Positions 39,690 to 41,061 of a DNA stretch of 64,000 bases are shown here, in pieces; the first letter of the stretch is position 1; every line of letters begins with the position of its first letter. The notes beneath the pieces were generated by a model. That model did no database searches, was not told the origin of the DNA, and was given only the letters and a program-made list of their open reading frames with translations. This DNA comes from Darksidea phi (Eukaryota > Ascomycota > Dothideomycetes > Pleosporales > Lentitheciaceae). Position numbers and translations under genes: made by a program. Location of the stretch: contig JASJFT010000006.1 in assembly GCA_030770425.1 (NCBI GenBank), positions 248,001 through 312,000 of the forward strand. Direction: 5' to 3'.

Positions 39690-39694
39690 AAAAA
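39690..39694 (-). terminator. Pol III-type T-run after the tRNA gene
   Basis: Five consecutive T residues on the minus strand begin 10 bases after the last tRNA base, as expected for an RNA polymerase III terminator. A second T-run lies slightly further on. Confidence 0.55.
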
Positions 39695-39704
39695 TATAAT
39701 CGTT

Positions 39705-39888
39705 GGGTCTTGCCGGGATTCAAACTGAGCTAATTGGTATCTGATGTCTGACTGGCTGGATGTGTAGCTTACCCCGGGGCCACCTGCATTGTAGATACAA
39801 ACTCCCTAAGCAGGTATCATTCCACTAGACTAGGATTGTCAGTCTAGCAAAGAAGAAGAGTGTTGGAGAGCTACTAACCCGCAAGACC
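39705..39888 (-). tRNA. tRNA-Pro(AGG) interrupted by three intervening sequences
   Basis: Reading the minus strand, four segments, 39888-39879, 39829-39804, 39788-39773 and 39724-39705, join to a 72-nt tRNA. The acceptor stem GGTCTTG/CAAGACC is perfect, with C73 as in proline tRNAs. The D-arm has A14, G18G19 and A21; the anticodon stem is CCTGC/GCAGG with loop TTAGGG and anticodon AGG; the T-stem CCGGG/CCCGG is perfect. The 15-nt piece 39803-39789 sits at position 37/38, the usual tRNA intron site. The other two are not usual: 49 nt between positions 10 and 11 (GTTAGT...CTGAC...TAG), and 48 nt between 53 and 54 (GTAAGC...CAG). The T-loop has T at position 56 instead of the invariant C. Could be a pseudogene, but all four stems are intact. 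Confidence 0.72.
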
Positions 39889-41061
39889 GCTGATTGGCTG
39901 AATTATAACGATTTTGACGTATTCAGATACTTATAATAGTTCCACAATTCGAAGAAAGAACGGAAGAGGCACAAACTGTTGGCTAGCTGTAGGAGCCGCC
40001 ATGAGTGGGGTTTGCGGGGAAGATTGAGCGAGTGGGTCATAGGACGGCGGTGAAGAAATTACTCGAATTCTGCTAGGTGAAGACGTCCGTCCAAAGCAAA
40101 AGAAATAGCACGTGACCAAACCCGCAATCCGGGCTACGCATACTTCTACAGGGCCACATTGCACAACATAAATTAACTGCAACAAGATCGAGCAACGTTT
40201 ACCGGCAATCTGGACAAGTCCGGTATCCCGGGATATGGGATGGTCAGGATCAGAGTAGGAACATGTTGCACGTCGAGTCGCTAGCTAACCCGCAGTTTGA
40301 GACTTTAGTTATCCCAAGCATGAATGCTAGTCCGGTAGTTGGCACAGCAACAACTCATCAATGCTACCGAAGCATCTAGAAGTAAAGCTTCCAGGAGATG
40401 GAATAACACACATATTAGCACTCACAATATGGGGTATGTGCGTCTCGGCAACGTCGAACAGCCAAGCGCGGTGCTGGCTCGCTCGGAATGTCGCAAACTG
40501 TCAGCCCTTACCGATTCGGAGGGAAACAGTAATGGTATGGACGGCTGCTCGCACAATGCTGATGGACTCACGGGAAAGACAGCCCAAGCTTGGGTGTGGT
40601 GTTGCACACAAGGATCTGCAGTCGGCGCACAAGCTTGGGGGACGGCTCCAGGACTTGACCGCCATCGATCATCGCGAGCTGTTGAAACAAGCCGCTTAAA
40701 CTCCGGACCCCATCGCCATCCCCTCGATCGAGCAAGAAAAATCCACCAATGAAAGCGAGCGCTTCGCATCTCGCTCCCCTGTACCAAGGCTCCAACGGTT
40801 ATTATCTCACTAGCACGCGAAAACAGCTTGCTCCAAGCTTGCCCCCAAGCCTGCCCAAGCCTGCGATTTAGTTGGCCAATTTATCCCGCCCCGGAGTATT
40901 TGCAGCTTGGGAATAGCTCCGACGCGTCGCTCTAGCGGGTGTAACGTTCGCGATGCCCTCCGCAGCATATATATGGCCTGTCGCTGCGACCCATGGGGAC
41001 CAGTCGTTGCAGCTCCTCCCCCCGACATCATTGAAGGCGACGAGCACCACGAACCGGCACC
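39889..41061. promoter_or_regulatory. Upstream region of the sugar transporter with repeated CCAAGC motifs
   Basis: No gene is recognised over 1.2 kb. From 40583 to 40915 the hexamer CCAAGC or its complement GCTTGG recurs: the palindrome CCCAAGCTTGGG at 40583-40594, CAAGCTTGGGG at 40630-40640, CCAAGCTTG at 40833-40841, CCCCCAAGC at 40842-40850, GCCCAAGC at 40853-40860, and GCTTGGG at 40908-40914. Paired inverted half-sites suggest a dimeric transcription factor, perhaps carbon-source control of the transporter. Confidence 0.45.

Follow-up and report, generated by a model that had tools for sequence, protein, structure and literature searches.

The window, a stretch of 64,000 nucleotides at C434:248001-312000 of the genome of Darksidea phi, carries a tRNA-Pro(AGG) gene that is split by a short insert in the anticodon loop and by two longer ones in the D and T arms (Table 1). 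The boundaries and lengths of exons and inserts had been given in an original prediction made from the letters of the window and were borne out on rereading them. The 72 nt that result from joining the four exons are called as tRNA-Pro(AGG) by ARAGORN with all stem pairs standard, so that the cloverleaf of the original prediction holds as well. Neither the unspliced locus nor a version relieved of both ectopic inserts but keeping the 15-nt intron is called as a tRNA by ARAGORN. Likewise, the unspliced locus gives no tRNA match against the Rfam tRNA model at an E-value of 10, the sole match being SNORD29 at 13 bits. When the joined 72 nt served as query for a DNA search, zero matches came back and even its own locus was missed; hence, this search is uninformative. 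Among the proteins encoded in the window, the best named matches are to Pleosporales, namely to Lentithecium fluviatile for a dimethylglycine oxidase (86%) and a P450/reductase (82%), and to Bimuria for a fumarylacetoacetase (77%).

Table 1. Features of the split tRNA-Pro(AGG) gene in the window, listed in the direction of transcription
Feature	Positions in window	Strand	Remarks
Candidate TATAA upstream box	39931..39935	-	47 nt before tRNA start
tRNA-Pro(AGG) gene, whole	39888-39705	minus	4 exons, 3 inserts
Exon 1, tRNA positions 1-10	39879..39888	-	
Putative ectopic spliceosomal-type intron at 10/11 (D arm), 49 nt	39830..39878	-	GTTAGT...CTGAC...TAG
Exon 2: remaining D arm, 5′ half of anticodon arm, AGG anticodon	39804..39829	-	
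Canonical 37/38 anticodon-loop intron, 15 nt	39789..39803	-	Assigned by position, as in 22 other genes (ARAGORN)
Exon 3: 3′ strand of anticodon stem, variable loop, 5′ strand of T stem	39773..39788	-	
Putative ectopic spliceosomal-type intron at 53/54 (T arm), 48 nt	39725..39772	-	GTAAGC...CCAAT...CAG; branch motif imperfect
Exon 4: T loop, 3′ strand of T stem, acceptor, C73	39705..39724	-	
T5 run, candidate Pol III terminator	39690..39694	-	T4 or longer within 40 nt downstream

Both ectopic inserts of the window gene have GT and AG ends, as had been seen from the letters and as is true for all 14 such inserts found genome-wide (see below). The branch signal of the original prediction stands for the D-arm insert, in which CTGAC begins 13 nt from the 3′ end, but not in full for the T-arm insert: the latter is devoid of a YTRAY motif and features CCAAT at the expected place, starting at -13. 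The insert lengths had been likened to those of ordinary introns in this genome, which agrees with the three protein-gene introns of 48, 49, and 120 nt that were placed by aligning the window with homologous sequences—a small sample, and one informative on length in the range of 42-130 nt only, as the placement allowed solely GT..AG introns of that size with YTRAY.

The 51.4-Mb genome, which consists of 477 contigs, was surveyed with a tool that scores part of its candidates and with dedicated patterns for some isoacceptors, and both the insert-bearing and the insert-free gene counts are hence lower bounds. A covariance search yielded 50 matches, namely 17 on two mitochondrial-type contigs and 33 nuclear loci, 31 of which are also called by ARAGORN. 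After removal of the degenerate-looking loci L021 and L041 and the organelle-like L024, 30 nuclear insert-free genes remain from this search. Pattern searches brought six more genes without ectopic inserts (L051, L097, L101, L109, L115, and L124), which were identified by eye and, for L124, also via ARAGORN. At least 13 nuclear tRNA genes with 14 ectopic inserts thus stand against at least 36 without (13 of 49, based on the patterns and nine weaker covariance matches). The insert-bearing genes occur on 13 different contigs. The window Pro(AGG) gene carries two inserts; one insert each is carried by Pro(CGG) (L049), Pro(TGG) (L050 and L054), Ala(AGC) (L066 and L071), Gln(TTG) (L080), Gln(CTG) (L112), initiator Met (L082), Lys(TTT) (L083), Ile(AAT) (L114), Trp(CCA) (L116), and Leu(TAG) (L127). 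A look for similar inserts in other tRNAs, which had been proposed as a check, has therefore turned up 12 more nuclear tRNA genes with the same signals. Two contigs of 24.8 and 10.5 kb (C304 and C417) carry 27 mitochondrial-type tRNA genes, all of them whole and intronless as judged by ARAGORN.

The inserts are located, as placed by eye, at sites 9/10, 10/11, 25/26, 28/29, 45/46, and between 52 and 59; the T-arm share of 9 out of 14 supports no conclusion, since the searches used mainly 5′ halves and thereby favoured T-arm inserts. The site 53/54 of the window T-arm insert is also used by the inserts of L054 and L080. A gapped pattern for this site, the only pattern to require splice ends, gave 10 matches versus 16 in the control; two of the 10 are tRNA genes, both already known, and none was added. 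The Pro pattern reaching from the D arm to the anticodon gave 50 matches (45 in the control), and its results refer to the 13 that were examined or known; each of the remaining 37 has 3 mismatches. Every match was examined or known for four further patterns, and 4 out of 6 were examined for another one. Insert-free paralogs, and hence empty sites, are present for Pro(AGG), initiator Met, Ile(AAT), and Ala(AGC)—the last one, L031, being assigned by eye and named Val by ARAGORN. The inserts of the two Pro(TGG) genes sit at different sites, 58/59 and 53/54, and the two Ala(AGC) genes likewise differ in site, which suggests several independent gains. Nuclear genes for Tyr, Glu, elongator Met, Gly(GCC), Arg(ACG), Val(AAC), and others were not seen by the searches used, which were dedicated to a minority of them. 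Glu and Val(AAC), going by the sequences that we assume for them, should match one of the patterns used, and their nuclear genes may hold D-arm inserts.

Mutual similarity among the 14 inserts is nowhere significant by BLASTN, the best match having an E-value of 0.12 over 9 nt (matches of 8-13 nt). The window T-arm intron and the L054 intron, which share their site, align with P 0.014, but 3 of the 12 other introns compared equal or surpass this (P 0.008, 0.010, and 0.012), so that the alignment does not decide on homology of the two. Copies of introners resemble each other; an introner-like origin was rejected because near-identical copies are absent among the 14 inserts, the set to which this comparison was confined and which excludes protein-gene introns.

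The 14 inserts have lengths of 47-57 nt, begin with GTNNG—that is, GT and a G at +5—and end with AG throughout; 9 of the 14 have 2-5 equivalent placements, from which the GT..AG one was chosen, and the five with unambiguous junctions are GT..AG without exception. A pyrimidine occupies position -3 in 12 of them. Thirteen of the 14 inserts have a YTRAY motif that begins 12-17 nt before their 3′ end, where 0.875 would be expected with shuffled interiors (P 1.4e-15), and the lone insert without it at this distance is the window T-arm insert. The features of U2-type introns—a 5′ GT with G at +5, a 3′ AG, YTRAY at its distance, and a length like that of protein-gene introns—are hence all found in the insert set. 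The anticodon-loop introns of 22 genes, placed by ARAGORN and some of them imprecisely, are 10-35 nt long, permit GT..AG ends in 1 of 22 cases, and contain YTRAY within the last 20 nt in 5 of 22. The canonical tRNA-intron position 37/38 is taken by the 15-nt insert of the window gene but by none of the ectopic inserts.

Removal of the ectopic insert in silico leads to an ARAGORN tRNA call in all 13 genes—for the window gene with the 15-nt intron taken out as well. Nine of the 12 other genes are then named with the expected anticodon. For the remaining three, ARAGORN gives Ser in the case of Pro(CGG) and Pro(TGG) b and Arg in that of Ala(AGC) b, a discrepancy attributed to misplacement of the canonical intron. 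Single unpaired positions remain in the D stem of the rejoined Lys(TTT) and in the T stem of the rejoined Ile(AAT). For some of these tRNAs, the insert-bearing gene is the only one found. With up to 3 mismatches allowed, the T-arm half of Trp has a single match in the genome, and the one Trp gene among the 14 matches to the Trp D-arm pattern is the insert-bearing L116. Five Pro genes lie within 0-1 mismatch of the D-to-anticodon pattern, with inserts in 2 of 2 TGG genes, in the single CGG gene, and in 1 of 2 AGG genes. Dedicated genome patterns found no insert-free copy of Trp, Pro(CGG), or Pro(TGG). In searches not dedicated to them, every gene seen for Gln(TTG), Gln(CTG), Lys(TTT), and Leu(TAG) likewise has an insert. 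Since the only Trp and Pro(CGG) genes found are insert-bearing, as are the two Pro(TGG) genes, the inserts are probably removed. As read from the genome, an essential tRNA whose sole copy bears an insert must be spliced, barring a copy that is absent from the assembly or split in the matched part.

Candidate signals for transcription flank these genes. A TATAW motif is located at -62 to -28 in all 11 insert-bearing genes for which upstream sequence is available versus 18 of 30 insert-free genes, and in all of these 11 it falls at -54 to -41; the control stretch at -185 to -151 of the insert-free genes has it in 2 of 30. A run of T4 or longer follows within 40 nt downstream in 13 of 13 insert-bearing genes. 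Read against box consensus sequences that we take to be the usual ones, the A box of the window gene is TAGTCTAGTGG in the DNA, being regained via the terminal TAG of the D-arm intron, and the B box is AGTTTGAATCC. The TATA boxes and T runs fit Pol III, and a TATA box could relieve the dependence on the split internal boxes.

Taken with these signals, the two inserts of approximately 50 nt in the window are very probably U2-type spliceosomal introns in a nuclear tRNA-Pro gene and part of a genome-wide condition. From this one gene, the original prediction had inferred that a nuclear tRNA of a fungus bears spliceosomal-like introns, and this reading is supported by 14 inserts in 13 genes with shared signals. 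Transcription by Pol III, positioned by the A and B boxes together with a TATA box upstream, would yield the pre-tRNA; the spliceosome would excise the GT-AG introns in the nucleus, as suggested by their length, by the splice sites at both ends, and by the branch site, and the ordinary tRNA endonuclease and ligase would excise the 37/38 intron, to which its position points. It is likely that spliceosomal introns have spread through the nuclear tRNA genes of this lineage, that translation here depends on the spliceosome via the sole-copy Trp and Pro(CGG) and both Pro(TGG) tRNAs, that one pre-tRNA is served by two unrelated splicing machines, and that the split internal promoter is tolerated thanks to the upstream TATA box.

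The ectopic inserts could instead be tRNA-endonuclease introns at noncanonical sites, handled by a relaxed enzyme as in Cyanidioschyzon merolae or archaea. Their positions in the D, anticodon, and T arms are similar to those in C. merolae tRNA-Ile(UAU), going by the accessible text of PMC9602550, and the window D-arm insert is able to pair around its 3′ junction. The hairpin that had been proposed at this junction does occur in the predicted fold of the precursor, which is otherwise unremarkable (z -1.0 versus shuffles), with the 3′ splice site of the D-arm intron inside it—an arrangement that would be unhelpful for splicing. It is not a common feature, however: the junctions of 1 of the 14 inserts form a bulge-helix-bulge with its complete central helix of 4 bp, where 0.45 are expected, in a simple test that leaves relaxed motifs outside. 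The yeast enzyme, moreover, is said to be strict for 37/38 (PMC4033280, accessible text), and cleavage by an endonuclease leaves the GTNNG start, the AG end, the branch motif at a fixed distance, and the length of 47-57 nt without reason, which makes this explanation highly unlikely. The same splice signals, together with the exact rejoining of the exons and with dedicated patterns having found Trp, Pro(CGG), and Pro(TGG) with inserts only, speak against the insert-bearing genes all being insertion-disrupted pseudogenes whose function is supplied by intact copies. Intact copies do exist in the form of the insert-free Pro(AGG), initiator Met, Ile(AAT), and Ala(AGC) genes. An intact Pro(AGG) copy had been named in the original prediction as one sign of a pseudogene and is present as L051, but 12 further genes have the same kind of insert, and the only tRNA-Trp found being among them renders a disrupted pseudogene very unlikely for the whole set. 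An artefact of assembly or contamination in a draft genome of 477 contigs is scarcely credible, given 13 genes on 13 contigs, inserts without significant similarity, and paralogs that lack the insert within this very assembly.

The window gene, taken by itself, may be a disrupted pseudogene. That this gene is itself decaying and no longer makes a working tRNA, its introns still being genuine, is a tentative but serious alternative; it is the weakest member of the insert-bearing set. The spliced product has C8 and U56, the latter encoded by the T56 that had been flagged as a warning sign, in contrast to T8 and C56 in each of the four other Pro genes; the branch site of the T-arm intron is imperfect; the predicted fold encloses the 3′ splice site of the D-arm intron in a hairpin; and L051 is an intact Pro(AGG) gene without ectopic insert in the same genome. 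Decay is at odds, however, with the presence of both TATA box and T run and with the pattern of differences from L051: 13 of 72 positions differ, 8 of these forming four double changes that preserve stem pairs and 5 lying outside the stems, with every stem pair kept and none broken. A cloverleaf formed by chance at the window locus is ruled out by these compensatory changes and by the further insert-bearing genes.

We know of no spliceosomal intron in any tRNA gene. The accessible text of PMC11782384, PMC4494063, and PMC4035089 describes no tRNA introns of the spliceosomal type, and among the papers listed by a search of openly accessible journal articles, no title or opening of an abstract reports them in tRNA genes; tRNA splicing relies on protein enzymes rather than the spliceosome according to PMC13149111, as far as its accessible text goes. 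Related cases are on record in other RNAs. The U6 snRNA gene of fission yeast has an mRNA-type intron (Tani and Ohshima, cited in PMC10484740) and thus resembles the D. phi genes in placing a spliceosomal intron within a short fungal Pol III non-coding RNA. It differs in being a single gene for a spliceosome component, with an origin by reverse splicing thought likely in the accessible part of the same source, whereas many tRNA genes are concerned here, at several sites and beside tRNA-endonuclease introns. In lichen-forming ascomycetes, spliceosomal introns occur in nuclear rDNA (Bhattacharya et al. 2000, cited in PMC8527467), and the accessible text of PMC8527467 has yeast removing such introns from Pol I transcripts. 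These likewise sit in a structural RNA that does not come from Pol II; however, it is a Pol I rRNA there and a Pol III tRNA in a Pleosporalean host here. Insertions in the D or T arm of eukaryotic tRNAs are rare and mostly deemed pseudogenes, except in a red alga and nucleomorphs, in the account of PMC4090602. Its accessible text holds bulge-helix-bulge motifs critical in C. merolae and gives Guillardia nucleomorph inserts a size of 3-24 nt, with their splicing unknown. The inserts of D. phi, in contrast, are about 50 nt long, have GT-AG ends together with a branch site, and are not clearly enriched in the bulge-helix-bulge helix. Introner-like elements of Dothideomycetes, the class to which D. 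phi belongs, reflect spliceosomal introns that were gained recently and repeatedly (PMC4457414, accessible text), from which the 14 tRNA introns differ in their lack of significant mutual similarity.

If true, the condition described here would be a genome-scale exception to the splicing of eukaryotic pre-tRNAs by endonuclease and ligase only, and Pol III transcripts would be proper spliceosome substrates. The insert-free paralogs would provide a natural system for studying spliceosomal intron gain and the splicing of structured RNA, and the split A and B boxes one for how TFIIIC and TFIIIB handle them. Essential tRNAs can, in such genomes, escape tRNA finders.

Several loci stand out in other respects. 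The Ala(AGC) and Ala(CGC) genes L031, L066, L071, and L038, which were identified by eye, combine a D arm resembling that of Pro (TTTAGTGGTATAAT or similar) with the G3-U70 pair of alanine tRNAs and are strongly unlike the Ala(TGC) gene L013. Imperfect tRNA-like loci, as judged by eye, are L021 (Thr-like), L041 (Cys-like), and L084 (Gly-like), with L021 and L041 rejected by ARAGORN. L079, L081, and L085 (on contigs C187, C425, and C158) share a tRNA-Ser-like head, GGAGGGATGGTCGAGTGGTGT... or near, and L079 and L081 are also similar downstream of it, resembling a tRNA-derived SINE.
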